A DNA stretch of 64,000 nt. Source: Anaeramoeba flamelloides. Taxonomy: Eukaryota; Metamonada; Anaeramoebidae. The stretch covers positions 1,240,501 through 1,304,500 of the forward strand of contig JANTQA010000051.1 of NCBI GenBank assembly GCA_027625915.1, read 5' to 3'. The notes beneath the pieces were generated by a model that was given only the letters and a program-made list of their open reading frames with translations, did not search any database and was not told the origin of the DNA. The translations under genes and the position numbers were made by a program. Below, one piece after another: positions 28,073-64,000 of the stretch (the first letter of the stretch is position 1; every line of letters begins with the position of its first letter).

Positions 28073-29945
28073 AATTTAAAAAATAATGAATGAGTATTAA
28101 GTCATAATTATTTCCTGAAATATTTAAATGGTTTTTGAATTCTCCATAGAGGAGAAGTACTTTAAAATTTTCATTTATTAAGTAACAAATTATCACAAAA
28201 ATAATCTCTTTTTTTTGAGAAACCTTTTATATTGGATCATTCATTTTTAGAAATTTCTTTTTTTAGAATAGAACTTCAAGAAATCAAAATCATATTAAAT
28301 TATTTTTTATTAATGGTATATTGGATAATTCAAATGATTGTGTCTATCCGAAAAAAAATAAAAAGAGAGTTTTTAATTCAAAAAACTCATTTACTAAGTT
28401 TGAAAGGGTTATTTATGTTCATGTATTTTTATAAAAATATTTAATTTTAATTTAAATTTCTGAAAGTGAATACAAGTAAAAATAAAGTTAGATATAATTT
28501 TACACATCTTCCCCAATAAAGATAATTATTTGATAATTTTATTCTATATTTTTTAAGTGGAGTCATTTAGAAATATGTAAACATATGAATGATTTGTAGA
28601 TCAGAATATCAAGTTCTAAGTTCAAATTTTACTGAGTATATAGTTCTCTTAAGGTTTATAAAAACTGAAAAATGAAAAAAAAAAAAATCTCTTGTCTTAT
28701 GTCTAATGAAATGTTTTTTGGTTCTTATCTTATCAATCTTAAACTTAATATGTATTTTAATGTTTGCTTAATATTAAAAAATTTTGATTTTTTTTTATAA
28801 ATCAAAATTGAAGAGGTTAATTTCAGATTAATAGATAGGAAGGTATATATAATAAAAAAAATTGACGATTGAATTGAAAATTGAAATTTATGACTTTATT
28901 TTATTTGGGCTTTTTCTAAAAATTTACAAGGATTAAAATAATCCATTTAGACCTTTTAAAGTGAATGTTTCAAAAAAAAAACATGTATATTTTTTCTAGT
29001 AAACCTACACATTTAATGATCAACAAAACAAACAATAAAAAAATAAGTAAATATGATTTTGGTCTCTTAATTTCACCCATGAAAAAAGATATTCTTAAAA
29101 TAAAAGATCAAATATTAAAGTTTTTATCAAAAAATAGAGATAATTTTTATCTAATTTTGTTTTTTAAAAAAAACAACAATTTTTAAATAAAAAAATTAGA
29201 ATCTCACAAAAAATTACTCAACAAATCGCATTCATAATTTCAAATTTTTAATAAAATATCTTAGAGTTTACTTTTTAAAATTGATTTGAAAATGGATATA
29301 TTCTTGACGCTTAATTCGATGATTTATCAGAACAAGAAGAAAAAAAAGAATGGGCTCAGTTTGATACAACTGTTTTATCCTGAGAATAAAGATATTTTGT
29401 AAACTGTATTTTTTGTTTTAGAACTTTGGTAAATGGGAAATAAAAATTTCGAAACTTAATCCTAAAATCAATTAATTAATTTAAGTACTTCCTTCAAAAC
29501 AATTAAAATTACACTCTACAATATAATTTTCTGAAAGTAAAAAATTCAAAAATTGAAGTATTAAACCAAAATTATAATTAAATCTACTTTCTGTATTTAC
29601 CAAATAAAAACCAAAATAACATTTCTAGATACATAGCAAAAGATAATTTTTTTTTCCTTCTTCATGGTTTGTAAACCTTAAAACAACAAACTTCCTTATA
29701 AAAAAAGCAAAAAAAATTCTTGAATAATAATACTTGAGTCAATAGAAACAGATTTATCGTTTTTTGAAAAAAAAAATAAATAAATCTAATTTCATTTTTT
29801 CTTTTTGTTTTTTCTGATTTCTTTTTATTTTTTTTCTCAAATTTTTTCCGATTTGATAAAAAAAAAAGAAAGTAAAGTCATTATTCAAAAAAAAAAAACA
29901 ATAAAAGAAAAAAGAAACAAACAATAAGCAATAAGCAAGAAGAGG

Positions 29946-32900
29946 ATGATTACACTTAAAACGAAACACTTCAAAGTTGTTACGTCATCGATCCATCCCT
30001 TAATTCAGCAAATTCCAAACTTTGTGCAGCATTTTTTAAAAAAACGAAAAGCATCCATTTTATGAGTTACTATCTGACTGTTCCAAAAGCTGTGAAAAGT
30101 ATGTGAGTTCGATTTCGGAAATCGAAAGGTTTATGAGCATGGTTGATAATAATCCTGATCATTTGTGGGATGTTACGAACAAAAGCACGACGCAAAGAAA
30201 AACTGTACGAGGGCAAAGTGTGAGTTGCACATGTAATTACTCTGTGACGAATTTCAACTCAAGTTCAGCCCAGAGGCTTGAAAGAGACTTTGAGAAGTCA
30301 CATCATTATTTGCATGATGTTTTGTTAAAAAGGGTCAGTAAGCAGAAGCAAAGCGAGATCGCGATGGTGAATTACTTTAAGAATTTTATGGACACGATCA
30401 ATTTACAGGACAACCATAACAATTTGGTTGCCATGCTTGATTTGCTATTTTATTGGCTGCGTGAAACTGATCACAAAATGGGGTTAAATCACAAATTCCG
30501 ATCAGAGGTGATTAAAATGATCGAAATAGGCATTTTGGTGCTAAAGAAATATGGTGTTTATCAAGACCATTTTTACATTTTTGGACAATTGATCAACACG
30601 AGGGGAAGCAGTGAGTGGGGGTTGAATTTGATTTCGCTGCCCACAGAATGGGATGCAGGCTCCATCTTATATGTCAAGCAACTATTGGAATGTATAATCA
30701 ACCCAATTTCTTCGGCATTGAAAGACAAGAGCTATTATTTAAATGAGAAGGACTTTCTCAAATATTTGGATTACTTGCCAATGAACCAGGTGCTTCAAAC
30801 ACTGTTATTAAATTGGCCAAGATTGATATTTGATCACGAAAAGACATGCAATTTGATCTACACCTTTGCTCAAATCTACACTTATGGTCTAATTAAAATT
30901 ACTGGGCGCTCGAGTATATCAAAATTGTTGGGTTCCAAGTTAAAGTTGGTCATTTTGACATTTTGTCACTATTTGCAAAAAAAGCACTATTCGTTAAGAA
31001 ATAATACTAATAACCAAATCATATACCCAGATCCTTTTGCCTATTATCGTAATAATAACTTTTATGAAAATGATATTGATTTTTCTTTATTTAAGAAACA
31101 TTTCTCATCTTTTTCTACATTAGACCAGATCTTTCTTGATAATATGTTGATTAATTTGATTGTTTTAATTAACAAATCCAAAGATCGTTCATTAATCAAA
31201 TATTTTGAACCATTTCCTTTCCATACATGTTCGATAAAAACTTGTTGGAAACTGCTTGGTATTCTGATTGGCAGGTATGATGCCACCCAAGGACTTGAGC
31301 CAAGCTATGAGAATTGGAAATTATTAATAACAGAAATGCCACAGATCCATCAAAATTATTCAGATTTCTTAAACAATAAACATTCGACACATTTATTTAA
31401 AATATTATTAAAAATTAGCTTTGCTCAACCTTTTTGGTTAATATCAATCATTGCTGAAGAAATCTATTGGGGATCTTTTATTAATCAGAATAATAAGAAT
31501 ATTGATAAAAATATCAATGACCCATTAAAGATATTAAACGAAATGTGTTTATCAAATCCAAGACTTATTTCAATGTTATTTCGACAAACAATTAAAAATT
31601 TTGATAAAATTAATGTAAACTACCAATTAATCTGGTCAAATTTACCATTATCGTTATGGAATTTAAATATAATTGATTTTAATTATTTTAAACAATTTTT
31701 TAAATATAATATAAATGAAAAAAGATTCCAATTTATTTATTTTTTGCTTACTAAATTAAATTATGAATTTAAATCCATTAATAAAAATAGATTAAATACC
31801 TTTAGAAAAAACCAATTATTAAAATTTCAAAATTATCAAAATTTTAAAAAAGTTACAATTGATTTAAAGGAAGCGGAAAATGAAAATGAAAATGATAACA
31901 AGAACAAAAAGAAAAAGCCAAAGAAGAAAAAGAAGAAAAAGAAAAAAACTGATCCATATAATAAAGTAAAATCAGTTAAATTACATAAATGGAGTAACAT
32001 TAAAATTCCAACAGAATTTAGTGAATTTCAATTTCAAAGAAAATTAGAAAATTCAAATAATGATAATAATAATATTAATAATGAAAATAATGATGAAAAA
32101 GAAGTTACAAACAATGAAAATGATAATGAAAATAAGAAAAAAGAAAATAATAAAATTGATGAAGAAATCATAGAATTAGAAAATAAAGAGAATACAAATA
32201 AATTTAATGGAAATTTCCAAATAAATTTAAATTTTGATGAATTTGATAACAATAACACCACCACAAATAACAATAACACCATCAATAATAACAATAACAC
32301 CACCACTAATAACAATATAACTACCACCAATAATAACAATAACACCAACGATATCAACACAACTACCACCACTGATATCAACACTACCACCACCAACACC
32401 ACTAACAATAACGACACCAACATTATTAATGAAAATAATAACAAAGAAATCAACATAATTAATGAAAACAATGATATTAACATTATTAATGAAAATAATA
32501 CTAATGAAAACAAAGAAATTGAAATAGAAAAATCACAAGAAAACCAAAATATTAATGATGAAATTAAAACACTTGAAGAAACTTTAAAACCAGAAGAATT
32601 AAATTTACCAATATTTTTATTACCAAATATCCATATCAAATTAGCAATTTTAATCATGAAATTTTATTTTAAAAGCATTTATAATAATAATGATTTGAAA
32701 AAAAATCAAAAAAAAGAGTATACAAACTTTTGTTGGAAATATATTCAAAAAATTAAAGTTTATAATAAATTTGGAATGCCATTTGAAGATTTAATAAATT
32801 ATCCAAATGATGAAAGATTTTCATTTGAAAAATATATTAAAAGCTTTTTATCAATTGAAGATCCATTTATTGCATATTGTTTATTAAAATTTACAAATAT

Positions 32901-35900
32901 TTGGAATTATGATGCCATAAACTTTTTATTTGATATTTTGATTAAAAATAAACAATTTTATTATCTTTCAGAAATATTATTATATAGAATTCCTTTATTA
33001 ATTAACGACAATTTAAATATCAGTTTACAAGAAGGCAATGAGAAAGAAACTGAAGAAAACCAAGAGGAAAAGAAAAAGAAAGAAAAAGAAAAAGAGATAA
33101 ATTACAATATATTTTACAAATTAACAAATAAAATTTTCAATCCAATTGATAATTTAATTAATAATAATAACAATTTACCAGAAACAAATTTAATTGATTT
33201 AAACAATAAGAAAATCAAAATCAAAACCAAAATAAATTTCTTTTCAATAATTTCACAAATACAAATGACTCAAAGGATCTTTTTTAAGACAATTTGAACC
33301 AAAATTAACTGAACAGCATATTTTACAATTTTGGCTCACTGTGATTACACAATTTCCAAATTGGAATAAGGAAGAAAAATTATTAGAATTGTTAAACAAT
33401 TTATTTAAAAAACAGTATTTTGACCGATTTAAGACCAATTGTTAATAGCTTTTTAAAATGTCAATTTTTAAAACAAATTGTATCACAAAGGAAATATCAA
33501 AAAAAGAAATTAAATGAATTAAACCAAAATATGATAACCTTAATCCATATGGGCAGAACGATGAAAGAAAAGGCAAGAAAAAATTTATTAACAAAATTCC
33601 CATTTTTTTATTTTGAAGTTGTGTTGGTCGAATTATTGATTAAATCAGATGAATTAAAAAACTTAACAAAGATTATTAAAAAATATGATTTTGATAATAA
33701 AAAAATTTCAATAAAGAAATTCTTAAAATCACAAAAAATCAAAACAAATTTTGAAATCTTAAATTGGTGGTTTGAATTTGCCATTAAAATTGAAGAAAAG
33801 GATTATTTATTATTTCCAATAATTTTTCAGACACTTTTTTTCGATTTTAAATTTACCATTTAATAATTTAAAAGATTTTAATGAGCAAAAAGATCGAGTG
33901 AATATAATTTTAGAATTATGTAAAAAGAACAAACAAAAAAAAGTTTTTCAAATCAATTGTTGAAAGATTAGATTTGGAAATAAAAAACCAAGAAAATAAA
34001 ATTAATAATTTTAGTAATAATAGTAATATTTATCAAACTAATCAATCACTTTCCAATAAAGAAAAAGTCAAATTATTAATTTACATTGAATTTAAAAAAA
34101 TGATTAACAATTATATTGAAGACGAAAATGAAGAAAATAGTTATAAAATCAATCAAAATGATAATTTATTAAATGCTAAAGCACAAATTAAAATGGATAA
34201 TTTGATAAATTACAATTTGATTAAAAATTTCAAAATCAATCCATTAAGCAAGATCAATATTCCAAAATTATTTCAATTAAACACACAATTTTGGTTTGAT
34301 TTGATGAATAAAAACAGAATTATTCAATGAATTTGAATTGAATCAATTATTATTTTATGATTTGGACAAATACATTTTATATTTAAATCATGTTGAGAAC
34401 AAAAAAAAAAAAAAAAAAAAAACCAAAAACAAAATAGTGGAAATGAAATTGAAAATTATTTATGTAAGCCCAACAATCAATTATTTTTTTCACATTTTTT
34501 CAATACAAATTTTTATAAAATTCAAAAAAATAATAAAATATTGTGATCAATACATTGAAATGACCAAAAAAATGGATTTCAATAAAGAATTCAAAATTGT
34601 GGAAGACAGTATTATCAAAAATAACAAAATATTTAAAAATAATTTACAAAACGCATACAATCAAGCAAACATTGATCAAAATTCCAACTTAGATGCCATT
34701 CAAAGAGAATTGACAAATTATTTGAACAGTTTCTTCAAATATTATCACCAATTTCATGAAAATAAAAAAATCCACAAGAACCTTGATAAGGAATTTTTAC
34801 GTAAGAGTAGACAATTATATAGAAATGTTCCTGTTACAATCAATAAAACTGAATCAATCACCATCCCTGTTACAGAAACTTACACCACAAATGAAGGAAC
34901 CACCAGCACACGTACAAGATATGACCACGAAACTGTGCACTTCACCTTCCATGTAACTGAAATTCAAAAAGATAATGGTGTATATCATGATATCATAAGA
35001 AACAGAGATCAGGTTACTGAATATACAAACTTGAGTAGGAATCCCAATAGGAAATTACCTGATGAAACAATAAAATCGATATATTTTTTTGAAAAGTGGC
35101 ATTCATTTTTAAAATTAAATGTCAATTTAACAAAATTGGCATATGAATGGAGTATCAAATTTAACTTATTTGAAGAAAGTGGTAATGGCAAAACTTTGTC
35201 GCATTATTCACCCTGGAAACATTTTAGAAAACATTTTACCAGATTGTTTTCAAATAGCTTTATTTTAAACAACCCCTTAGTATTGAAGGATATATTATTA
35301 TTGATTTTACAAAACCCACATGCTCGAATAAAAAATTTTTCAAAATACTTTAATCCAAATTGTAACAACGAACTATTTATTGAATTATTTAACCTTGTTT
35401 TCAATCATTATAATAAACAATCCAAGTCAAACAAAAAAGACTTTTCCAAACTGTTTAAAAATTTTAATTTCCAATTATATTTGAATCAATTATTACCCAA
35501 CGAACAATTCTGTAATCAATTTTTAATGACCTTTTATTCAATGATAAATTTCCAAACTTTTAAGGATTTCTTAAAAATTCACAATTGCTTTGTCAATTAT
35601 TTGGGACAATTTTTATTATATAACTTTCCTGTAAACTATTTTAATATCTTGAATCAAATAATGAAATTATTTGCAATTGGCGAATCAGTACCTCAATTAT
35701 GGGCAATTTTATTAACCATCCCACAAAATTATTTAAAATTAGATTTGGTAATAAATACAAAAACAATATTGACACAAAACTTTAATCTCAAATTACAACA
35801 ATTATCAACAAACAAATCGAATTTGTATTTATTTTTAAACAATCCTAATATCAAATATCATTCCAAGGTTAGTAGTGTAGCAACAATTATTCAATTTTTT

Positions 35901-38031
35901 TGAAAAACTAATCTTAAGTTTACCAACTGAATTAAGAAATACTGAAAAGATCACGCTGCAAAATATTGAAAACGTGAATTATTTCTCATATAAAATTCTA
36001 ATTGATTTATTTAATCCCTTTATTAATAACAATTATTTGATCAATAATAACCCTTATCCTGCTTTTTATCATTAATAAAGACCAATTACCAGAAATATCT
36101 AATTTATTTCAATCCTTTTGTAAACAATTAAATTTTTTTAAATTCAAATTTTTTGAATGTGATCAATTATTTTTTTAATGATTTTTCGTTAAATTTTGTT
36201 CAAAACACACCAGATATCATCGCAGATAATGTTTCGAATGTCCTCGCTTTTAATATAAATTGGACACAATTGATAATCAATTTTAATGTTTTAAATCATA
36301 TGATAAAAATATCCAATACCAATTGGAATAGAATAATTAGATTAATAATTGCAAAGGTAAATTGGTTATTTTATGAAAAACAACTACTTGGAAACAATAA
36401 TAATAACAATAATAACAATAATAATTTGGAAAATGAAAATAATTTCCATTCAATGCTATTTGAAAGTATTTGTAACGTTATATTAAATTATAGTGATTTC
36501 GATATTCCAATCCAATATAATAATTTCGTGATTATGATCAATAATATTATCAATCAAATAAATTGGAATAATTATTTAAAATATGAAAAATATAATTCCT
36601 ATTTAGAATTTTTAACAGTTGATACCAAATTAATTAATTATAATAAAGATAACAGAAAGGGAACTAATTATTTAAAAGAAATTAAATACAATGAAAATAT
36701 GTTTACCAAAGAAATTAAAAATAAAGAACAACAATTATTTTTATTTATCTATTTTTTAAAAAAAATAATTAATTTTGATAATATCAACAATTTTAACTTC
36801 AAATCAACTTTTTGTAAAACCATCACAAAAATTTTAGAATTGTCCTCAACTATTTTATTACTTGAAGATAAAATTGAAATTAAAAAAACGTAGATTTAGA
36901 AAAAAATCAAGAAATTACTTTAAAAAGAGAATTACCACCAGTAAAACAAGTTTCAATTCTTTCCTTTGAATTATTTGAAACAAATTTTATTAAAATTTGG
37001 TTAGAATTAATCAAATTATCAATCTTAAATAGTGATAATAATAATAATAATAATAATAATGTTGACAATCTCCAATTCCCATTTGATTTGATTTTAAAAA
37101 ATATTATAAATCCACAAATCCAAATTTCTTTAATAGAGAATCTGTGCTTTTTTTATTGAACAAAATAATAAATTTAGTTTACCAATCTTAAAATCTATTT
37201 CTCTAGAACCCAAATTAATTAAAAATTCAATTGCAGTTGGAGAAACATGTATATTGGTATATATGAATTCGTATACAAATAATTGGGATTTCCCAGCACT
37301 AATTTCTCATTTTAACTTTATTGATGTTGATCAAGACCAATTAACAACTAATTGCATCGAGCAATTTGCCTTTACAACAGTATGGTTATATTTAAAAAAA
37401 AAGTTTTTATCAAATGTCAATAATGATAATGAACAAGATAACTCTACATTCAAATTCGATATCATTAAATCAACAGAAATTTTAAATACAATTATTTTGA
37501 AAAACAAATTAAAATATGGAAAAGAATTTACCTATATATTAATCGTAAATTTATTATTTAAATATTTAAATGTCGCAAATAATTTAATTGATGATAATGA
37601 TTTTTGGAAAACAATAAAATACAATTTACAATTTATCGCAAAGAAATTTGAAGATCTTTATAATGAAAAAAAATACAAAAGATACGTTGATTGACTTTGA
37701 TGATAGCAAATTAGATTTGAATTATCGTTTAGCATTCTTTACTATCAGTACTCTAATTAACAATGGATTTGCCAAGCCTACCAACGAATTAATATTTCAA
37801 AATGAAACAAATAAAAAAACAACGAAAAATGCTCAAAATTCCTTAAACAATCTAACCAAATTAGCAAATAACAAACATTTCAAGATATTCGATAAACAAA
37901 TAAATATATTTTCCGAGTTTATCACAAATAATGAATTGACAATAAATAATTGCTTACAATTGATTTCTCATATTTCTAATAAATTATTTACAAATCATAA
38001 TGATAATTTCCTTACTTATTTCATTAATTAA
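29946..38031 (+). CDS. EPG5: EPG5 homologue (autophagosome-lysosome tether), broken by 14 homopolymer frameshifts
   Basis: In animals EPG5 is a Rab7 effector that tethers autophagosomes to late endosomes/lysosomes. Length here is about 2,690 codons versus 2,579 in human. Match to the remembered human sequence is spread along its length: FYELLSDCSKSCEKY near the start, the VLKKYGVYQDHF / SSEWGLNLISLP block, the VPVTINKTESITIPV and VHFTFHVTEIQKDNG block (about 34.8-35.0 kb), and FLLYNFPVNYFNIL (about 35.6 kb). ATG at 29946 is the first in its frame and fits the alignment. Poly-Asn/Thr and Lys/Glu insertions occur at 31.87-32.6 kb. No splice sites explain the frame changes; each falls on an A or T run of 5-22 bases, and no in-frame stop remains apart from those caused by the shifts. 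Either consensus errors, a young pseudogene, or recoding. Identity is strong; intactness is open. Confidence 0.85.
32250..32430 (+). repeat. AAT/AAC/ACC trinucleotide tract coding poly-Asn/Thr
   Basis: In-frame trinucleotide repeats within the EPG5 gene coding Asn and Thr runs. Similar shorter AAT runs occur at about 36400-36425 and 37029-37060. Such tracts are common in AT-rich protist genomes such as Dictyostelium. Confidence 0.85.
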
Positions 38032-39229
38032 ACCTAAAAAAATAATTTCTTATTATTTATTTTCTTTTTTTTTTTTTCTTTTAAGATTACTAAACAAATA
38101 GAATGAATTACTCAACTACAATAAATGATCATTATATTATATTTTTTTATTTTTTTTTTTTTATGTTATTAATTAAATTATCGAAAACTCAACTAATATC
38201 GAGAATGATTTTTCTAATTTTATTATTATTTATTTCTCACTTGAGTACAATTTTTTCATCCTGCAATTTCCAAGATGTTTAATAAAAATTCAATTCTATG
38301 AATTAGAACGTTGAAACGAAAAGATAATATAGTAATAGAGTTGACATTTTGATTCTTTTTTCCAAAATAACCTCAAATAATTCTTTTTTTGATTTCATGA
38401 AATCAAATGATTCTTTTTTATTTTAATGATAAATCTCAACTTATTTTTTGTTTAAATTCAGTTTTTTAATCGAATCATATCATTCTCAAAATTTAATAAT
38501 CAATATTTTTTTTTTATTTTCTATTTATAAAGAATTTAATATTTCTGAAAAAAAAAAATTTGAGGTTTTTTTTCTTGGGATCCAAGAAAATTTTAATTAT
38601 CTTTTTGCCAAACCATGTTGTTTTTAAGTTTATTCCTGATAAGAAAATTATTTTACTTTGAAATGGAATAATTATCTTTTATTTTTGTTTTTTAAAAGAG
38701 TTATGTTACCAAAAATAAAAATTCTTTTTTTGATTCCATGGAATCAGAATAAAATAAATTTTGAAAAATTATTCTTAGAAGAGACTTCAACACATTGAGT
38801 GTTTTTGATAAAAACTGATTATATTGGAATCATTTAAATATTATGATTTCAATTTTTAAAATTTTGAGATTCTAAAAATTGCAAAAATATAATCATTTTG
38901 GGATTTCTGAGAACTATTCAAAATTAAAATAATAGATATATTTGTTATTAATGAAAAAAATTATCAATTAATACAAAATAAATATAAAAGAAATTTGATA
39001 ATGATTTAAAGTTATGAATAAATATTTGCTAAATTATTTTATCAAGAATGAAAAATAAATGAAATAAAATTCTTTGGTTGTTTAATAATTATTAAACAAT
39101 TTTTACAATTTATTGATTTCTGTAAAAATATAATTTTGATTCAATTTGCTGATTTTTTTTTGAATTGTGGTGTAATTTCTTGAATAAAATTTAGTTTATT
39201 TTCGATCTAGATATTTTCGAAATATTTAT

Positions 39230-39794
39230 TTAAACTTTGTTTCTGTCAAAGATTCCCAACTTTTTTTTTAAAATATCAATTATTATTTTATAATTAACCT
39301 TTGAATGTCAAATAATAAATAAGTAGAATAACACCCATCAAAGAATATTTGATATATGTATAAAGTAAAATTATCAATCAATAGTTTTTCTTAAAAATTG
39401 AAAAACTCAAAATTCTTAGTGCTATATTTTGAAAAATAACAATTTATATTTTGATTTCTAATTCAAGATCCAAATACAATTCCAATCGAAATAAATTTGC
39501 TTTCTTTGCAATGATTTTAACAGATTAAATAATCTCAAAATAACACCTTTTTAGCAAGTGATTATTGATATTGCTATTGGTGATAAAAAAAAATTGCAAA
39601 TAAATTACTTATCAAAAAAAAAAAATTGAAAATAAAAAATTTAAAAAAAATTGTGAAAATATGATGAAAAACCGATTTCAATTTTTAGAATTTCCAATAA
39701 TATATTTTTTCTACAAATATCATTCAAACCCTTGATATTCATGTGATTCATCCATTATAAATACTACTGTTTAATAGAAAAGGATAATTTTAAA
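39230..39794 (+). mobile_element. TIR element with TCAGTCAAAGGG-type ends, copy 3
   Basis: Left end TTTAAACTTTGTTTCTGTCA; the right end is degenerate. The interior is shared with 13064-13760 in the same orientation: AAATAAGTAGAATAACACCC, ATCAAAGAAT, then TATTGATATTGCTATTGGTG. More diverged than copies 1 and 2, so probably the oldest of the three. Confidence 0.55.
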
Positions 39795-42403
39795 TTTTAT
39801 GAAATATTAAAAAAAACAAATGATGAAAAAAGAAACTAAAAAAAAATGAAACTTCATTAAGAAACAAAATCAGTTATATTTGATATTTCTAAATTAGATC
39901 ATAATTTTAAGAAGAAAAGTTAAATTATCAAATAAAATAATTATAAAATTATCCAAATAGTTTTTTTTTTTTGAAATTTTGAAGTATCTAACTTTCCTTG
40001 AAGATATTCACAGCAGTTATTTATTTATATTACTAACGAAAATGGACAGCTTATTTTAACAGGGATGTGATTCAACGTGATAAGTTAACCGATTTATCAA
40101 CTTTCTAGAAATAAATTATCCTTTTTACAATTAGATTTTTATATCAATTAATTTTCTATCAAAAGATATGACATTTTCTGTTTAAATTTTTGGTTTTGAA
40201 AAATTAAAAAGATATATTTGTAAAAGAATTCTTTTTAAATAGAAATTTCACTATTAGTTATTTTTTTATAATTTAATGAGCAAATGAACAATTAAAATCT
40301 CATATTATAATTTAAATACAAGAAAAGCAAACCCAATATTCTGAGAATTGTAGAATTTTTATAAAGATCTTTTATTTATTTCTTTTTTTAATTTCTTGAA
40401 GGAGTTTCTAAAATTGAAAAGATTCATTAATCCTTTTTTAAAAGCTTTTAGAGTATTATTCATCAAACATTTATTCAGTAAATCAGTTATTTGAGAATCT
40501 TTATTTTTTTTATTTTATTTTATAATTAATAAATAGATATAATTTTATTTGTCCGAAAATATTTAAAAATTTGAGAAAAAATATTAAAATATATAAATAC
40601 TTTTAATCTTTATGTTATAAGTTCCCAATAATTAAATAATTAAGGCTGGGTTATTAATTTTATTAAAACACAAAGAAATATTTAGCTATTATTATTTCGA
40701 AATTTAATTTCACAAGGTTTTAAAAAATGTTATGTAGGAAAATTTAAAATTCATATTTGATGATACTTAGAATATTTTTGTAAAAAAATTAAAAATATTG
40801 TAAGCAATTCTGATAGAGAATTAAGAAGTTATATTTGTTTCATATATATAATTAAATATTTTTATTCCTTTCATAAATACTCTTTTTTCTGTTCCTACTT
40901 GAATTTTTTATTTTTTTTTAGTTATTCAAAAGATGAGAAGAAGAAAAATGTTGACTGTGTGATTCTGGTTATTAGGTTAAGTATTGAAGGGGAGAAAAAT
41001 TATCAAAATTCAACTTTATATATTGATGACATATTTTGTAATCAATTACTGTCAAATAAACCATTAGAAAAACGTGTTGTATGACAGCTGTTATTTAAGA
41101 ATTTTTGACATAAAAAACAACCAGCAGCATATTCGAAATCAGAGACACAAAATAAAACTTTCTAAGTTGGTTTATAGTTATTTTTTCAATTTTATAAAAC
41201 ACCACAAGTAATGAAAATAACGATTATTTTAGTATGGAAACATTTCAAATGTAAACTTTTATTTTATTTTTTTTCTCAATTCTTAGCATTTAAAGATAAA
41301 ATTCCTAATTCAAATCGAAATCAACATGGTTTAAAATCTGAAAATAGACTCGGTTTTAATTTTTTTTTCTTTTTGAATTGCTGAATATTTTTAAACTTAA
41401 AAATTAAGATATTTTTTTTACCATATTTAATAAAATGGAATAAAAAAGTATTCAATAGAATGAAATAAAGATTTAAAAATAATTAATTTAGAAAATCTTT
41501 ATATTGAAGAAAGGAAATTTTAATTAATAAAAATATAAGATTACCACATTTTTATCCGCTTTTTCTTAATTTTTTTGTCAAAATAAAGTAAAAAAATAAA
41601 TTGTTTAAAATTTAAATATTTGTAAAGGAAACCACTTGTTTTAATATGCAGTCGGGAAAAAACCACAAAAATTTTCTTTTATATTACTAAAAAAATCGAT
41701 TCTATAATAAATTCCAATATATATATAGTAAACCAAAAATAAAAAACAAATTTAAATTAAAATATTTAAAAATAATAAGAAAGATTTTTTTAGGAACTCA
41801 TTAGTTAATATTTTAAAAATTTAAATGATTTTTTTTAAAAAAAGATTTAATACACTCAAAAAAAATCAAAATAATTGTAAAACAGAACTTGTATACAAGA
41901 ATTTATTTTCAACGGATGATATATATTAGAAATGAATTCTAGCTATACATAGCCAATATATATCTTTACTTAGTTTGATGTCAATACAATCCTTATTACA
42001 TATATTATCATAATTATTTTTGAACAAAAAAAAAAAAAAAAATAGTTTTTATTTCAGTTTTTTTTCTTCCAAAAAATCAACTTCCCTAATATTTAACAAT
42101 TCAATCTGAGGGCAATAAAAAAAATTTCAAAAAAATTAAGCATTTACAAAGGTTTCTCTTTTTAATAACTTCATTCAAAATAAAGATTATTGGTTAATTA
42201 GAGATCTATGATCAAAAATTATTTTGTAAAAGATGTTTAACGATTTATGTTGTATATCCAATTTCAGATAAAATTCTTATCAAAATTCAAAGTAAAAATT
42301 TTTTAAAAAATTTTTGTAGCAGTATATAGGGTATTTTATTATCTATAATGGCGATTTTATTATCTTTAAAAAGTATTTTAAATTAAGATTCAATTATATT
42401 TTA

Positions 42404-42893
42404 GAGCAGTGAAAAAAATACCGGACATGAAAAAAATCCCGGACAAGATTTTTAATTGTGAATATTAGTAAAATTATTGTGTAATTTCATTTATTTACAA
42501 TCAAATTCCTTTTTTTAAGAATCGAACTTTTTCAATTATAACTCCCCCCACTTATTAGAATGATGATTAATGAAATCACACTTGTTCAAAACACCATTCA
42601 ATCAATCAAAAAACAAGAATAAAAATTATCATTTTCCAAACTCTAGTAAACCTCTATAAAACTGGATTGTTTTTCAAAAAAAGTTGATCAACATTAGGCT
42701 ATCAAACAATTACTCGAGTATTCTTGAGACACCTTACTTTGGTGAACTTTAGGTAGGTTTATTACTAATCTCATAATAAAATTGGTTATTTATAATAAGG
42801 ATTTAATTGAAATTATACAACAATTTTACTAATAATCACAATTAAAAATCTTGTCCGGGATTTTTTTCATGTCCGGTATTTTTTTCCCAACTA
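42404..42893 (+). mobile_element. Tc1/mariner-like MITE with TA duplication, copy 1
   Basis: 490 bp. Ends GAGCAGTGAAAAAAATACCG and, read inwards from the right, TAGTTGGGAAAAAAATACCG. Both arms continue with ACATGAAAAAAATCCCGGAC and AAGATTTTTAATTGTGA. TA lies directly outside both ends (42402-42403 and 42894-42895). A near-identical copy in the other orientation is at 59859-60347. TA duplication suggests the Tc1/mariner superfamily; no transposase, so this is a non-autonomous copy. Confidence 0.85.
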
Positions 42894-42973
42894 TACTATT
42901 AAAAAATTATTTATGTAAATTCAAAAAAACTATTTTTTTCAATTGAAAAAAATATTTTTACTTTGATTTTTCA

Positions 42974-43237: not shown

Positions 43238-43899
43238 TTTTTTTTTCTTTTTTTTTCAGGGGCACTTGACAAGACTTGTATTGGCTTTTCACTTATTTTA
43301 CAGAATAGAATAAAATCCTAGATTTTACGAAGAATAGTTTTAACTTAAAAACACATTTTTCTCTTTTTAGAGAACTTATTAAAATCTTAGGAGTTGCGTC
43401 AACTTTAAATATAACAGTTGCAAGATTTTCAAGTTATTTAATGATAACTATATTATAAATAAAATTTATAACAATAATCAAATGTATATTTAAATATCTA
43501 GTTTTATATCAACTTAAAGATAGAAATTTTATTTTTTCAAAATAAATCGAAAAGATTTTATTCAAATTATTTTTTTTATAAGTCACATTTCCACACTTAA
43601 GAGACTAGGAATTCACTAAAAGCCAACAATTTCCCTATAAACCAATTTTTTTCGATTTTTTAGTTTGTTGAAATATTGATAAAGAACAACATAGGAAAAA
43701 TAAAAAAAAAGAAATATTTGTTATAAAAACAATATTTTATTTTATTATTATATCGAGAAAAGATCTCATTTCCCAAAAACAAATCCACAAAGTATGAAAT
43801 TTGTTATGTATTATCAGAATACATTTGGAAGTTGTCTCCTTAAAAAAAACAAAAGAATTTCATTTTTTATTTTTCTTAATAATCTATTCTTTAGCAAAA

Positions 43900-46800
43900 A
43901 TGATGTCTCAAACTTACAAATGTATCCCTGCAACTGTGATTGCAAGGGAAGATATTGATTCTGGTGGAAAAAGTAAAACTTTTTTCTTTTTTTTTTCTTT
44001 CTTATTTCATCCCAAACCCAATCAATATAATAATTCTTTTTTTTTTTATTTTGTTTGGTTTGTATGAATATTCGTTTCTAAAAAAAAATATAGTTTCGCT
44101 TCCTGAGTCTGCTTTAAGTCAATTGATTCAATTAAATGTAGCAACGCCATATATGTTTAAGATCGAAAATATTAAAACGAAAAAATTTTCTCATTGTGGT
44201 GTTTTAGATTTTAATTCCACAGAAGGAACCTGTACTCTTCCAACTTGGTTAATGAACACACTTGAATTAACAATAAGGGATCCAGTCAGGATCGTCTCTC
44301 GAACATTACCACCTGGAAAATTTATCAAATTTCAACCTTTGACCTCTGATTTTACTTCGAAAGTTACAAACCCAAAAGTTGTTTTAGAAAGAAAACTTCG
44401 TAATTTTGCTTGTTTAACTCAAGGTAAGGATTATTATTTTATTTTTTTTTTTTTTTTTTTTTTCTTGGATGACAAGGAAAAAAATCTACAGAGAAATCAG
44501 TTAAATTTTCCAAATTATTTCTTATTTTCACAAAACCCAATTCTAAATTCACTCGAATTTTGAAAAAACAAATAATCTTTTTAAAAAGGTCTTTACAAAA
44601 GATAAAAAAATACAAAAGAAAAAAAATATAATAGTTTTTATTGAATGTACAATCTTTTTTTTCCTTATTTTTAATCATTACAGAAAAATACAAAACGTTT
44701 TAAAAAAGTGTGGCAAAAAAGTTTTGAAAGGTATCTATAAAATAGATGATAAACTTATAAGACCCATTTTTAGTTCTATATAAAAAGATTTTTTGTAACA
44801 TTTTTCAAAAAAGACAACATTTTCAAATTAGTTTTTAAAGTCTTATTAGAGGTAGTTGCCAAATAAAAGGGAAAAAATTTTAACTTCGTTTTCATTTTTC
44901 TTTTTCAAATAGAGATCACAAATTACAACCTACTTCTTTGAAAACTCTATTTATAAAAGTAAAATAAGGAAAATGAAGTGATAATTTTTTCCCTTTTATG
45001 ATGTAAATACCAATATTGTAAAATTTTTTAAAAGAAAAATGTTATTCTTTTGATTTGGATTTTGATTTTATTTATAATTGGTAGAAAAGTTTTTAATGGG
45101 TGGTGATCATTGGTAAACAAAAATTACAAAAAAATGTTTTTTAAATGATCAAAAATTTGGTTGTGTTATTTTAGCGTGTAAATAGAAAGATTTGAGTGTT
45201 TCTCGGGATTTTTTTATTTTTTGATTCTAAAATTTTTTATTAAATTTTTAAAAATCATCTCTCCAAACACACTTTTATAACACCTCAAAAAGATTTAACT
45301 GATATTAATTTGTGTTTTAATTATTATTAAAAGTGTGTCTTTCATACTTGTTTGAAAAAAACTTTATCAATTTACTTGATTCTAATTTAATTTGTTTTTT
45401 TCAAAAATATTTTTCATCATTTTTATTACTTTTTTGTTCCTTTTTTGAGTAAATTTAACCATCAATAATTTTCTAGTAGTATATTAAAGTATAATGGTAT
45501 GCTTGAATAATTTTAGAATCTATGGACGAGGCATAAAACTTTAACTAAAGGGATAAAAATTCAATTCTGAAATATTTTATATATTTTGAATGTAAATATA
45601 TTTAGATATTAAAAACACACATAAACAAAGACCAATATTATTATTTATACTTTGTTGAAACTCAAAAATAACCTGCAAATATTAAACCAAAGTACGAAAT
45701 TGATTTTTTTTTTTTTTGAAAAGTTAATAAATTGATAAGAATTACTTTCTGAGAAAAGTTTATCAATAAAAATTTTATTTTAATTTTTAAAATATTTAGT
45801 TTCAAAATTATTTTGTAAAATTTTTTTTAAATATTTGAGATAAACTAATAAATTAATTTATTTAATTTCAAGTTATTAAAATTATATTTAAATTAAAAGT
45901 GAACTTATTTTTCTCGTTGAAAGCCTCAAACTTTTTTTAATTCATAAGATAAATAAGAACTTTATTTTAATTAATATTCGCCTTTAAAAAGGTTTAAAAT
46001 TTTGAAAATAAATAACAAATCTAAATTAAAGGCTGTTTTTCTTCTTTTCAAATCTACCTTGCTTGAAAAAATAATTTATGGAATTACTCTTAATGAAAAT
46101 AAACACAAAAGATTGATCCAAAGTAGAATGATTTGATTGATTTTTAATTGTCACATTATTAAACTATTTTTCAAAAATGTTAACTCACTTTATAATGCTA
46201 CTGTAAGTTGATTTTGTGGAGTTTTATTCCAGTATTCTTTACAAAAAATATTTTTCAAATTTTTGGATCAGAATCTTTTTTTGAATTTTGCAAATTTTTG
46301 TTTTTTTTTTGTTTTTCTTTTTCTTTTTTTTTGAAAAATTTTTTTTTGCAAATTTTTTTTTGTAAAAGATCATTGTGAAAAAAAAAAAGAACTTCTAAAT
46401 TACCAATAAAAATTAAGAAATTGAGATTCTGTAATTTCTTTTAAAATGAATATAATTATTAGCCAAAAATCTTGTTGTTTACTTTTTTTCAGTGAAATTC
46501 CAGTAATAAAAAATCTTTAAAGCTCATTTCAAAAATTTAAATTCACTTTTTTTAGTTTTTGATTTTATTTTTTTTAATTTTTAAAATATCAGTTTTCTAT
46601 ATGTTTAGAATGGCTTTAAAAGTGAATTATGAATCAGATTTAAAAAATAATTGTTCTTGAATCTCAATAATAATAATTATTTTTTTCAATTTATTATTTC
46701 AGGTGAGTCAAAGTTTTTGAAATGGGGTTTATTTTATAAGTTATTTACATTCTTAATAAAATTTCCTTTTTTTTCCATACTCATTTTTAATATGACAGAT

Positions 46801-51200: not shown

Positions 51201-51999
51201 AATAATTTAAATTTAATTATTTTAAATGAAAAAATCATTAATTGATTCGAAAAATTCATAAATCCCTTAACAAAACAATACAAAATTAAGCTCCATTTTT
51301 TAATCCAGTATGAAAAGGTCACCACCTTTCTTTTCATATACCTTTCTGATATTTCACTAAAATCTGGTCCTAAGCTTGTTAGTATATTTAAAGAAACTGT
51401 AAAGAAGGCGAAACAAGTTTCTTTTGATTTTGGAACCTTTTTGTGGCAAATTTCAAATTAAGATATTAGGTAAGACTTTTTATTTAAAATTCAAAATTTC
51501 TAAAAAAAACTAATCTTTGAAATTCTTACCTTGCCTCAATTAGTTCACCCTTCCTAAAATGGAATCAATACATTATTGGTTCTAAAACTAATTTCCAAAA
51601 CTATGAAATTTACAACGCCTTAAAGTCATTTTTTATTTTTGGAAATAGTTTTTTTGAGATGGAATTTTAGAAAAAGAAAAAAGAAAACTAGAATGAAAAG
51701 ACAAGTTTTTGTAACCCCAAGAAGCAACAACTATTTATATAGTTTTTGTTTTTGGGATTCTAGATGTGGTTAACTAAAAATAATGATTATTTTACTTTAG
51801 AATAATTCCAATTTTCATTTTTTTTAGTTTTGACATTTCTCGATTAACTCTTCACCATCATCACAAAAATTCAAAAAAAAGGTTTGGGTATCTTTGACAA
51901 ATCTTTAAAGAGTAACTTAAATCCAACACAAACAAAATTTTTTTAATCTTTTGTCTTCCTGAAAGAAAAAAAATAAAGTAAAACAAAAATTTTTAATTA
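48258..51999. other. Intergenic region between UFD1 and the FHA-AAA gene (3.7 kb)
   Basis: An (AT)n tract lies at 48314-48331. Otherwise A/T-rich sequence with no gene, RNA or paired repeat that I can support. Confidence 0.7.
48314..48331. repeat. (AT)n microsatellite
   Basis: Nine or so AT dinucleotides about 55 bp downstream of the UFD1 stop codon. Confidence 0.9.
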
Positions 52000-54900
52000 A
52001 TGAGCAATCCCATAAACAAGAATGAAAATGAAAAAGAAAAAGAAAAAGAAAAAGATCAAAACAAAACAATTAATTCTTCGAACACTTCTGTACCTTCAAC
52101 AGTAAAAACAAATCTTTCTCGTTCACCAAATGACTTTCAAACAAATAACAAATTACTTCAAGTAAAAAACGAAAAAGAATTAGAATTAGAATTAGAAAAA
52201 GAATTGGATGAAATTGAAGGAAACAGAAAACGAAAAAGAACACACAAACTCCAAACAAAAAAAGATCCTATCAGAAGATCAAAAAGATTACAAAAAAAAA
52301 ATGAAGACTATTCCTTATTAAACGAAACAAAGCCAATCCAACAAAAAGCCAATAAAAATGAAAAAAAAAAAAGAAGAACAAACAAAAACAAATTTATAAA
52401 TGGAAAACAAATTGCAATCAACCCGAAAGATCCAAACATTTCAAAAAATACACAAATCAATGAAAATGAAAATTCAACTTTTCAGGATTCTTATAAAGAA
52501 AGGACTCTAGATTTAACAAATACATTGCATGCTCCAAAGCTAGGAAACTTATCGAACATCCCAATGTTTATTAATTTAGATCAATTACTTTCAAACCAAC
52601 AAAATAGACAAGAAAACGGAAATGGAAATGAAAAAATGAATTCAAAACAAATACAATCAGAAACTCAAAATTTCCAAAAAAATAACAATTCAAATCAACA
52701 AAAAAACAAAATGGATCTTGAAAACCAAAAATCATTACAAAAAGAATCAAAATCCAAGTCTAACAACAACAATGACAACGACAAAATCATAGGCAATAAG
52801 CAAAAAGAAAAACAGAATAGTAATAATAATCATAACCATACTAATATTAATAATAATGATACCAATCAAAAACCAAATAATAGCACGCTCCCAAAAACAA
52901 GAACTAAAGGGTGGGGATATTTGTTCCATCAACTTGAACCACGAGAAACCATTGTTATCACATCCACACCGTATTCATTTGGAAGTGCGTCAAGATGTCA
53001 ATATCATATCCAAGATCATAAAATTTCAGGATTATTGACAAGGATTGTTGATGAAGTGAAAAAAGACAAATATTTGGAAGTTCATGGCGATAAAGGAAAT
53101 GTATTTTTAAATGGGAAATGGATCAAAAAAGGGCACAAAATTGTCATTAAATCGGGTGACCAGATTGTTATTGAAAGTTCCAAAGTACATTCTTTTATTT
53201 TTGTTTTGGATTCATTTTTTGTAAAATACCAATCACTCAAGAAGGTCAATATAAGCAATCAACAATTGCATACACAACAGCAAAAATTGAATTTCCAAAA
53301 AAAAAAAGAATTTTATTCAATTATTGATGGGCATGTTCGAAATCCAATAAAAGAGCCAAACACACCGTCACTAGATGAGCTTGAATACCCAATTGATACA
53401 GATTTTAAAAAACTTTTTACTCAATTATTTGAAATAAATCTCAAAATTTTTGAGTTACTCGGCTCAAAGCAATTTCCAAAAAATATAAGCAACCGGATTT
53501 TATTAACAGGAAGGAATGAAACACAGGTGTTCCAAAAAAAGCTTTGTTTATCTTTAGCAAAAAAATTCAAAATCCCAATTTTAATTTTTGATTTTTTTGA
53601 GATTTTACAACAAGAAAAAAATATACGGAATGATAAATTATTAAAAAAAAAAGATCAGAACTATCCACAAAAAAAAAATAATTCACAAAATTTAAAAAAT
53701 TCAAATAATAACAACAATAAAGGTATTAATTCACAAAATTTAAATAACAACAACAATAATGATGATATAAATAATAATAATGCAAATAACAACAATAAAA
53801 AAGACAACAACAGAAGCAGTACTAATAATTTCAATAATAACTCTATTATTAATACCAATTTAAATAAAAAAAATAACAACAACAATAATAACAAAGAAAA
53901 GGAAAAAGAAGAAAATAATAATAATGAAGAAGAAAATGAAGATAGTAAAAAAAATGAAATTTTTAATTCAAATACTATTAGAAAAACAAGAAAACCACAA
54001 TTAATGGGATCAAGTGAATTTAATGAACCAAATTCCGACACAGTAATCAGATACCTCAGTTCACAAATATCTTTAAATGATCGAATCAGGTTTATTGGGC
54101 CCAAATTTATTGATATGAAAAAAACAATGATCCTTGAACGATTAAAAAGGTATAACGGGCCAAACCCTGGGAGCGAGGGCACTGTGAAAATCATTTTCCA
54201 TGACAATGGTAATACAAATTTTGTTGGTGTTGATTTTGATGAAGAAATCAAAAAGGGTGGACATTCCTTTGGAAATTTAACAAAGGGTAAAAACGGATTT
54301 TTTGTAAGAAGGAACGAGGTTTCCAAAATTGATGGAACGATAAAGGATTATTCAATTCTCTTAATTGAATCATTATTTCAATTTCTTGAAAGCATTCCAA
54401 ACAAGGGCTTTTTGTTATTTATTCCAAATATTGAAACATGCATTTTCCATTCCTTTGAAATATATGAAACATTTAAAACCAAATTGGTTTCATTAACCAA
54501 AAATAAACCAATCATTATTATTGGGGGGGTTGCATTGTCCGGGAAAAAAAGTAAAAACAGTTCAAACGATCCAATAGCATTGCTATCAAAAAATTTTGAT
54601 AAACTATCTGGGGTTTCAAATTTGTTTCAAAAAAAGGATTTTAGAAACCAAAAAGATAACCAAAGAAATTTAATCAATAACAGATTTGCCAATGATAATA
54701 AAAATTCAAATACATTCAATAAAAATGCAAAGCAATCAAATTCATCCGAAATCGAAAAGGTGATCCAATTTCTAACAAATTTGTTCCCGACCAAAATGCC
54801 CGTTAAAAGACCGAAAAAGGTTACCCAATTTGAAAAATGGAAAATGAAAACTGAAGAAGACAAATTGAATTTAAGAATCAAAAAAAACATCAAATTATTT

Positions 54901-57900
54901 GAAGAAACTGCCAAAAAATATAAAATAAGTCTTGATAATATACAACCAAATTGCTTTTCTTTGATTGAATATTCACCCAAAGATGTTTTTGAAATTCTTG
55001 GGTGTTCCTCAACACATAAAATAACCTCACTTTACCAAGAGATTGAATGCAACACTACAATGTCTTCTTCGACGGAATTAGATTTTGAAAAAAACATCAA
55101 AATTTTGGATCAAAATGATCTTAATTATGGCATCCAATTGCACAAACAACTTTATAAAATAGGCACAAATAAACTACCAGAAATCGATATAGAATTTTCA
55201 AATGAATATGAAGAAAAGCTTATTTCCGAAGTGATACCTCCCAATAGAATCAATATTAGTTTTAAAGATATTGGCGCTTTACATGATGTTAAGGAAGTTT
55301 TAAGAGAATTTGTAATCCTTCCTTTGAAAAGAAGAGAATTATTTCAAAGAGGAAATTTAATTAAACCGTGTAAAGGTATTTTATTATTCGGCCCACCAGG
55401 TTTGTATTTTATCCTTTGTTTTTTTATTTTATTTTTAATTTTATGTTTTTGAATTAAAAATAAATTTTTTTTTTTTTTAAAAAACTATTAAAAAATATTC
55501 AAAAATTCAAAAAAAAAAACAATAAAGAAGAAATATAAAATTAGAAACAAATGAAATAAAATATAATATTATATATATATTTAAATGTTAATTCAAAAAA
55601 TATTTAATAACAGTTCAAAAAAAAAAAAAAAAACAAATAAATCATTGGATAATTAGAATTTATTATTAATATTTTTTTTTAAAAAAAAAAAATCTCATAA
55701 TGAACATAATATTTGATTATTTATAGAATATAAATTATATTTAAATATATTACATTAAAAAAGCTTTTGTTTAAAAACATGTTTAGAAAAAAGTTTTTTG
55801 AATAAAATCCCGAAAGCCAATCTATTGAAGTTTGTCAATAGTTTTTTAGATACTTTTTAAAAACTTTTTTGTTACACTTTTTTAAGGTGTTTTAACAAAA
55901 TAATGTCATTTATGATCAATTTCAAAAAAAAATAAAATTAATATCAATTCTTAAAGTATTCAAATTTATTAAATTTATTTTTAATAATAATACATTAAAA
56001 ACAAGATCGAAAATAAAAAAATATAAAAAAAACAATAAAAATAATCAACTTTTTTTATTTATAATTTATTTTAAAAAAATCAACAAATATATCAAGAATA
56101 AGTTTTTTATTTCATATTGTTTAAAAGATAAATCTATATAACTGTCTTTTTTTTTTTTTTGATTTGAAAACGATCACTTTGTTATGTTACAAGTTTGACC
56201 TGAAAGAACGAGAAAGGTGATATTGTTCGAAGTGATATAAGATGATATTGACGAGTTCTTCGAAGAACTGCGATTAATTTACTCTTAGCACTAGAACAAT
56301 ATCATATTTTGAGTTCTGGAAGGGGATATAAAACGAGGAATTATAACTGGTGATTTTTGAACAAATGAAACTATATGAGATGCTATTTATTTTTTGGAAC
56401 TCGGGATCTAACTCTACACAACAATACACAAAACAAACAAATTTAAACCAATTTGTTATTTTTTTAATGGTACTTTGAATAATTTATTCTTCAAAGGATC
56501 TTTTTCTTCCAATGGAGTTATCCAAAACACTAAAGTTAAATTTTACATTTTCATCATTTGGGGGAAAAATTTGTTTAAATTTTACAGAGACTAACTAGAT
56601 CGCCCAACTTTTTAACGAGTCTATCTCCCCTTTTATTTCATGCTTATTTAGAAACAACCAAAGGTGATCAAACATAAAGTATGCATCTATTATGTGTTCT
56701 TAACAGTAACTTATTTTGAGCATTTCTCTAAAAATTCTTGACTTTACATAGCAAAAAATTTTTTTTTTTTTTATTTTCTTAAATTTGTAAATATGTTTTT
56801 TTCTCATTTTGAAATCTTCTAAAAATGGTCTCTTCTCTCTTTTTTCTTCGAAAAAAAAGAGACCACATGTTTTTTTATTTTTTAAAAATGATATTGATTT
56901 CTTTCGAACCAAAGCCAAAAACGCTGTTTGGTTTTCGGCATTATTTTTCAACAAAGAAAGAGAATTCATTCAATTTCCAACTTTTATGGGAAAATTGATG
57001 GAATTTTTTCTTTGTATTCTATTGAACAAATAATTGGGATCCTTGAATCAAATTAATCTTCCAATGTCATAAATGCTTGAGCGCGGCGATTTTTTGGGAT
57101 TTATGAGGTTAGCAATGTCACAAAAAAATTGGTACAACTCTTCTAAAATAACTTTAAATAACATTTTTAAAGTCTAATTTATTAGTAAAATGCTTCCTCT
57201 TTTACTAATAAATTGAATTTAAAATTAGAAGATCAGAAAATTTTCAAACTTTGCCGAAATAATTAAGTATTTCCCAAAATCTTTCCACAGTGGCTACAAT
57301 TCTATCCTCAACTTTTGAGTTTTCTAATCTCTTTCTTATCGGTAGTTCTGAGGAATTATATACTTGTTTTTTTTTTTTACAAATAAAAGGTTTGAGTTTA
57401 AAAAAAAATAGATAGCCTCATTATAAAAAAATAACAAAATTAATTTTATTTGTTTTCATTTTCAGAATTTCAATATATTTACATATTTTCAAAATAATTT
57501 TAGGTTAAAAAAGAAAAGATCTTGAGAAAAAAAATTTTTTTTTCTAAACAAAATAAAAAAAATATTTTTATTTTAATCTTCAAAATATCTTCAAAAAAAA
57601 CATTATTAATTTTCAATTTATTAAATATTGTGATTATAAAAATGCCTTTTAATTCTCTTGTTCATTCATTTGATAACTATTTTTTAAAATATTTTTCAAA
57701 TTTTAATTTGTTTTTTGAAAATAAATAAAAATAATAATAAATAAAAGAAGTGGTTATTGTTAGTATGCGAATCTAAAATTTTAAATAATATACAATTTAT
57801 TGATTAATTAATCAAAATGCCTACAATTTAATAAAATAAATAATAAAAAAACTAAAAAAAAAAATAGGAACTGGTAAAACAATGTTAGCAAAGGCAATAG

Positions 57901-59810: not shown

Positions 59811-59858
59811 TTTTTTTTACTATTTTAAGTATTTTTTGTTTTCAATTTTTTATTATTA

Positions 59859-60347
59859 TAGTTGGGAAAAAAATACCGGACATGAAAAAAATCCCGGACA
59901 AGATTTTTAATTGTGATTATTAGTAAAATTTTTGTATAATTTCAATTAAATCCTTATTATAAATAACCAATTTTATTATGAGATTAGTAATAAACCTACC
60001 TAAAGTCCATCAAAGTAAGGTGTCTCTAGAATACTCGAGTAATTGTTTGATAGCCTAATGTTGATCAACTTTTTTTGAAAAACAATCGAGTTTTATAGAT
60101 GTTTACTAGAGTTTGGAAAAGGATAATTTTTATTCTTGTTTTTTAGTTGATTGAATGGTGTTTTGAACAATTGTGATTTCAACAATCATCATTCTAATAA
60201 GTGGGGGAGTTATAATTGAAAAAGTTCGATTCTTAAAAAAAGGAATTTGATTGTAAATAAATGAAATTACACAATAATTTTACTAATATTCACAATTAAA
60301 AATCTTATCCGGGATTTTTTTCATGTCCGGTATTTTTTTCACTACTC
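59859..60347 (-). mobile_element. Tc1/mariner-like MITE with TA duplication, copy 2
   Basis: 489 bp, the reverse-orientation twin of 42404-42893 with only scattered differences, hence a recent mover. Ends TAGTTGGGAAAAAAATACCG and, from the right, GAGTAGTGAAAAAAATACCG. TA lies directly outside both ends (59857-59858, 60348-60349). A small open frame starting inside the right arm is not a gene. Confidence 0.85.
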
Positions 60348-63985: not shown

Positions 63986-64000
63986 TTTTTTATTATTATT

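Follow-up and report, generated by a model that had tools for sequence, protein, structure and literature searches.

The question that this locus raises is why a large gene of Anaeramoeba flamelloides should change its reading frame again and again within short runs of A or T. The gene lies at positions 29946-38031 of our window, by which we mean the whole stretch of DNA that was analysed, 64,000 nucleotides of contig JANTQA010000051.1 (C51:1240501-1304500). The G+C content of the window is 18-33% in 2-kb steps, and the genome comprises 254 Mb in 76 contigs. Read straight, the gene consists of open fragments in shifting frames, the longest of which have 1085 and 531 codons. The original prediction named the gene EPG5 and offered three explanations for its state, namely an error of the local consensus, a very recent pseudogene with slippage, or a tolerated +1 recoding or transcript slippage. 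Our comparison of this copy (A) with two paralogues (B and C) suggests an ordinary cause, with a probability of about 0.9: the frame breaks in A, and those in B, would be residual consensus errors in a homogenised, near-identical duplicate.

A DNA search of the genome with positions 33000-34000 returned 21 places. Three of these covered nearly the full query (A itself, B at 99% and C at 92%), and the remaining 18 were matches of 36-160 bases. Copy B is found on the same contig as A, inverted and ~140 kb away, and is also broken, at other places, its longest fragments having 825 and 424 codons. Copy C, located on contig C70 and 89% identical, is a single uninterrupted frame of 2677 amino acids. 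An Asn-, Lys- and Glu-rich stretch in the middle of the protein (~32030-32540) varies in length between A and C and leaves the frame intact. Copy A, as delimited by its stop-to-stop fragments and its alignment to B and C, and the frame-breaking events read from the paralogue alignment are the following.

29946-38031, plus strand: copy A, large gene (~2,690 codons as written) with 15 frame-breaking events
30038-30044, plus strand: A run with one extra base relative to B and C
33280-33285, plus strand: T run with one extra base relative to B and C
33407-33412, plus strand: A run with one extra base relative to B and C
33835-33841, plus strand: T run with one extra base relative to B and C
33922-33926, plus strand: A run with one extra base relative to B and C
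34310-34314, plus strand: A run with one extra base relative to B and C
34401-34422, plus strand: smeared A run of 22 bases; B and C have an internal T and C, and B is one base longer
34524-34530, plus strand: A run with one extra base relative to B and C
35895-35901, plus strand: T run with one extra base relative to B and C
36063-36067, plus strand: T run with one extra base relative to B and C
36133-36139, plus strand: T run with one extra base relative to B; C is as long as B and has an internal A
36882-36888, plus strand: A run with one extra base relative to B and C
36900-36906, plus strand: A run with one extra base relative to B and C; missed as a separate event by the original prediction
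37148-37154, plus strand: T run with one extra base relative to B; C is as long as B and has an internal A
37666-37673, plus strand: A run with one extra base relative to B and C

These 15 events comprise 14 single surplus bases, A or T, and one smeared A-rich stretch at 34401, where copy A has a net loss of one base and both paralogues carry T and C among the A's. The claim that the frame is broken repeatedly, and always within A/T-rich runs, was borne out, and no other disabling change was found in copy A by a stop check that omitted codons touching a gap. The details needed revision: the count of frame changes rises from 14 to 15, and the share running in the same direction, given as 11 of 14, becomes 14 of 15. 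Three sites had been described as needing one more base or two fewer: besides 34401, the one at 36882 is in fact two distinct surplus A's in the adjacent runs 36882-36888 and 36900-36906, and the one at 30038 is a plain surplus A. Two other sites move to slightly different runs, 33922 instead of 33935 and 36133 instead of 36149. The cluster downstream of 33.28 kb had been put at twelve changes; 13 of the 14 sites originally given lie at or after 33280, as do 14 of the 15 in the corrected list.

When all three copies are aligned, 7 substitutions separate A from B over 8484 aligned bases, compared with 927 over 8329 for A and C. The coding sequences of A and B are further separated by 29 indels and, as expected of consensus error, it is homopolymer length that differs at 28 of them, one copy having surplus A or T in a run (14 times in A and 14 times in B). 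The surplus is one base in 26 cases and two bases in 2, both in B. Copy C carries the shorter length at all 28 sites, with a pure run of the same base at 20 and with other letters at 8. The 29th indel is the A-rich stretch at 34401-34422. Copy B contains two more smeared stretches, in which G or TC between A runs is written as A, and four of the seven substitutions (31941, 32706, 32707 and 34411) fall inside the three smeared stretches. The run in the shorter copy was 4 bases long at 4 events, 5 at 6, 6 at 13, 7 at 3 and 10 or more at 2. Expressed per run and copy, the event rate is 1% for length 4, 5% for length 5, 24% for length 6 and 12% for length 7, and the coding comparison of A and B revealed no events in runs of 3 or fewer or in any C or G run.

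The positions of the events bear on the possibility that the surplus bases are real and tolerated, with ribosomal +1 shifting or RNA polymerase slippage restoring the frame. Similarity to C does persist through all the breaks, and A keeps the coding pattern of C outside the gapped codons (dN/dS 0.15), both of which speak for such recoding. However, none of the 15 events of A is common to B or C, C encodes the protein without any shift, and the paralogous ORFs of 1143-1153 codons described below require none. The letters around the sites also vary from site to site, no motif search having been made. Recoding or transcript slippage as a conserved property of the gene is thus contradicted, and we rejected it because C is open and the sites in B are different; that the frame of A is restored in this manner at all is scarcely credible. 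It is very improbable, too, that freshly homogenised twins have both gained real, insertion-only mutations in run length that are tolerated or corrected in the RNA.

Identity between the A and B loci is uneven, and two patches of high identity were delimited within the window.

29770-38700: near-identical patch common to the B locus; 8930 bp with 9 substitutions, 28 one-base run differences and 7 other indels
43600-45400: second patch, ~99% identical to the B locus, around the 5' part of the UFD1 gene

The aligned parts of 38.9-43.6 kb diverge by 12-14%, the second patch by ~1%, and the aligned parts onward to 48.5 kb by 5-8%; the sequence flanking the main patch is unrelated between A and B on the left and diverged on the right. 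Positions 42349-42918 and 46012-46729 are not collinear and were left out of the counts. For the first patch, the ratio of one-base run differences to substitutions is 28:9, of which 26 differences are coding and two lie past the stop codon. The second patch gives 8:20, and the diverged parts (6489 bp) give 13:666; other indels number 7, 5 and 40, respectively. At the ratio of the diverged parts, 0.18 run changes would be expected in the first patch, where 28 were seen. The contrast between 28:9 and 13:666 indicates that run-length differences do not accumulate with time; they are concentrated where another copy is near-identical, as expected of consensus error. Counted per comparable run of length 4-7, the differences amount to 28/318 in the first patch, 4/85 in the second and 5/169 in six diverged stretches, 4 of these 5 lying in the single stretch 40909-42348. 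The UFD1 gene downstream (Pfam UFD1_N1 and N2) begins inside the second patch, and in its conserved coding part copy B has one A more than copy A, whose frame continues through the Pfam match. The second patch is in excess as well, but it is part of the same duplication. Besides A and B, the dispersed repeat of ~500 bp at 39231-39751 occurs in at least 38 places at 73-78% identity.

The two patches, at 99-99.9% identity, are best read as the result of recent gene conversion between the inverted copies. A weaker alternative to gene conversion is that A and B are largely one sequence written twice, a single repeat consensus having been used for two genes that differ more than it shows, with errors added to each separately. 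This alternative overlaps with residual consensus error, since the frame breaks would be consensus errors under it too. The limitation of near-identity to 29.77-38.70 and 43.60-45.40 kb, in a locus otherwise 5-14% diverged, would agree with it. We nevertheless consider it unlikely: gene conversion explains the patches equally well, the left flank is unrelated and the right one diverged, and long reads can span a repeat of 9 kb.

The same ratios bear on the second explanation of the original prediction, in which A and B would be very recent pseudogenes whose A/T runs have been lengthening through replication slippage from the time of their redundancy, C being the functional copy. The existence of an intact C would make the loss of A or B tolerable, and the climb in event rate from run length 4 to 6 agrees with slippage. 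According to PMC7466956, the indel rate of Dictyostelium is twice its substitution rate, a figure of over ten-fold is cited for Plasmodium and some eukaryotes are insertion-biased; the same paper reports that deletions exceed insertions 4.5-fold in Dictyostelium. In our case all 28 surplus events are insertions, which slippage would have had to produce independently in two copies, and the diverged parts of the same duplication show the low ratio given above.

Other signs of decay were sought in the coding sequences, with gapped codons (52 of A and 51 of B) excluded from the stop and dN/dS checks. In the frame of C, no in-frame stop except the terminator was found in 2,624 codons of A or 2,625 of B, and neither copy has a nonsense change, though 7 substitutions are few. 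The dN/dS relative to C is 0.152 for A and for B and mostly reflects older time; between A and B there are ~5 nonsynonymous and 2 synonymous changes (ratio 0.53), too few at n = 7, and some of them lie in smeared stretches. For comparison, the alignable disturbed actin copies of this genome (L059, L060 and L062) have 33, 117 and 131 mismatches, together with gap letters that number 1, 8 and 6, respectively, and that include no one-base change in A/T runs of 4 or more; these three look like ordinary diverged copies. Three others (L061, L063 and L064) did not align with the intact actin copies at the chosen threshold. Recent pseudogenes with slippage keep a small part of the probability, but they fail the test of ratios and need insertions at 28 of 28 sites in two copies, and we hold this explanation to be quite improbable.

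Residual consensus error is favoured because the breaks are private to each copy, run in the same direction in 28 of 28 cases, are absent from C and are independent in number of divergence. As the first explanation of the original prediction it is strongly supported by the comparison of paralogues, which falls short of proof. The mechanism may be as follows. A consensus built from long reads would write A/T runs one base too long and smear a few A-rich stretches, and short-read polishing would leave these errors where reads have no unique placement, as in a near-identical patch. The near-identity of A and B would itself come from recent gene conversion inside an older inverted duplication. We infer that the surplus bases originated in sequencing and polishing and not in the cell, and also that the assembly was made in that way at all. 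The Anaeramoeba assemblies of PMC11550330 were made from nanopore reads with Racon, Medaka or Nanopolish, and Pilon, which does not establish that the present assembly is among them.

The placement of the events is in keeping with this mechanism. Copies A and B have 1 and 8 events, respectively, before 33.25 kb, 7 and 6 between that point and 35.7 kb, and 7 and 0 after it. The positions differ by the Mann-Whitney test (P = 0.004), and a runs test on all 15 + 14 events gives P = 0.011 with the event labelled 34402 assigned to A, its proper copy (this label follows the alignment numbering, which is one less than the 1-based window positions used in our list of events). Such a separation would be expected if the reads used for polishing accumulate on whichever copy has fewer errors. 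For repeats, Wick and Holt (2022, PMC8812927) report that reads given a single placement favour the error-free instance and leave the error of the other instance uncovered.

Controls were taken from elsewhere in the window and in the genome. The ORF at 51997-55452 (1151 codons) and its two paralogues on contig C70 (85-86% identical) are all open, with 1143-1153 codons. A/T runs of 5 or more number 74 in this ORF and 121 in the open copy C. The hydrogenase ORF at the end of the window aligns without gaps to two 82% paralogues (L054 and L055). The original prediction had described nearby coding sequence as clean, and this stands for the 51997-55452 and hydrogenase ORFs, the two neighbours that were compared. 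Gaps with lengths not divisible by three occur in two farther hydrogenase copies (L056 and L057) and in both paralogues of the 51997-55452 ORF, and many of these gaps lie in low-complexity sequence. An assembly that is poor throughout was rejected as an explanation, given the open copy C, the three open copies of the 51997-55452 ORF and the two gapless hydrogenase paralogues. Five copies of a 500-bp repeat, two from the window and three from elsewhere in the genome, form ten non-independent pairs with 4-16 substitutions per pair; no pair shows a single-base difference in any of its A/T runs of 4 or more (18-19 such runs per copy), one C run varies, and two of the ten pairs have one further indel. 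For actin, 30 loci were taken from the 110 matches listed and 18 were compared. Six pairs exceed 98% identity over 800 bp, the best at 98.7%, and the only gap in these pairs is one base in a short A run (L029/L031). Actin is a weak test, with 4 A/T runs of 5 or more per pair and copies that are too diverged.

Several points weigh against residual consensus error. The error is deduced by comparing sequences and not from reads, and no other long near-identical gene pair was found in the genome with which the polishing mechanism could be tested (actin was tried). A pattern of insertions only is not what nanopore data would be expected to give, although the platform may differ, and the unpolished simulated assemblies of Wick and Holt (PMC8812927) contained mostly homopolymer deletions. 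The dependence on run length is not simple, given that none of the 5 runs of length 8-9 in the main gene is affected. The events in the UFD1 patch fall on 4 of 45 runs of length 4, on none of 40 runs of length 5-7 and on all 3 runs of length 9 or more. The diverged stretch 40909-42348, with 13% substitutions, has differences in 4 of 32 comparable runs, a rate per run like that of the patch. The runs test gave P = 0.064 when the 34402 event was assigned to B, and the lack of coincident sites between A and B carries little weight, 1.8 being expected by chance (P of none 0.17).

The name EPG5 was given by the original prediction; our searches, in libraries that may or may not include an EPG5 model, neither confirm it nor refute it for what may be a diverged protist protein. 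Of 9 papers on EPG5 and Dictyostelium, the 8 that were listed include none about its sequence. The length of 2677 amino acids would presumably fit EPG5. Pfam gave no match to the whole of copy C at E up to 0.1, and three matches when the protein was searched in six pieces, all with E of 0.95 or worse. NCBIfam, a library for prokaryotes, gave no match to copy C, and a PDB sequence search with copy C gave one, to a ribosomal protein (E 0.06).

Other features of the window were recorded along the way. The ORF at 51997-55452 has an FHA domain with a Pfam score of 19.3, just under the cut-off of 20.7. Its two copies on contig C70, at 4710330-4713944 (minus strand) and 4912614-4916146 (plus strand), are in opposite orientation ~200 kb apart; the pair mirrors the inverted arrangement on C51, which suggests an inverted duplication predating the split of both loci. 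Positions 42402-42908 and 59844-60349 hold a repeat of ~500 bp with similar inverted ends of ~83 bp and at least 39 further places at 96-98%, which looks like a small non-autonomous DNA transposon. At 62185-63999 (minus strand), running past the end of the window, is an ORF that combines an FeFe-hydrogenase with a flavodoxin domain. The genome contains 11 other near full-length DNA matches to it, at 73-82%; this ORF and its copies point to an anaerobic protist.

The case calls for caution with AT-rich genomes, where near-identical duplicates can mimic pseudogenes or recoded genes when the consensus alone is wrong. The comparison of paralogues used here, which looks for run differences that are private, one-directional and not scaling with substitutions, is quick and works without reads. 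Among known systems, the residual errors that Wick and Holt (2022, PMC8812927) describe in repeats after short-read polishing resemble those of our locus in being frame-breaking errors of run length in near-identical repeats, with the copies wrong at different places; they differ in that the surplus events here are insertions only, and platform and polisher may differ as well. A recent pseudogene shares with copies A and B a broken frame, continuing similarity and an intact paralogue elsewhere, whereas our copies have no nonsense change, insertions only, hardly any substitutions and an indel excess confined to near-identical patches. Programmed +1 frameshifting of the Euplotes type and transcript slippage in AT-rich endosymbionts are the known systems for comparison with recoding, and they are alike in showing many frame changes in one gene at A/T-rich sites; the sites described here, in contrast, are not common to the paralogues.

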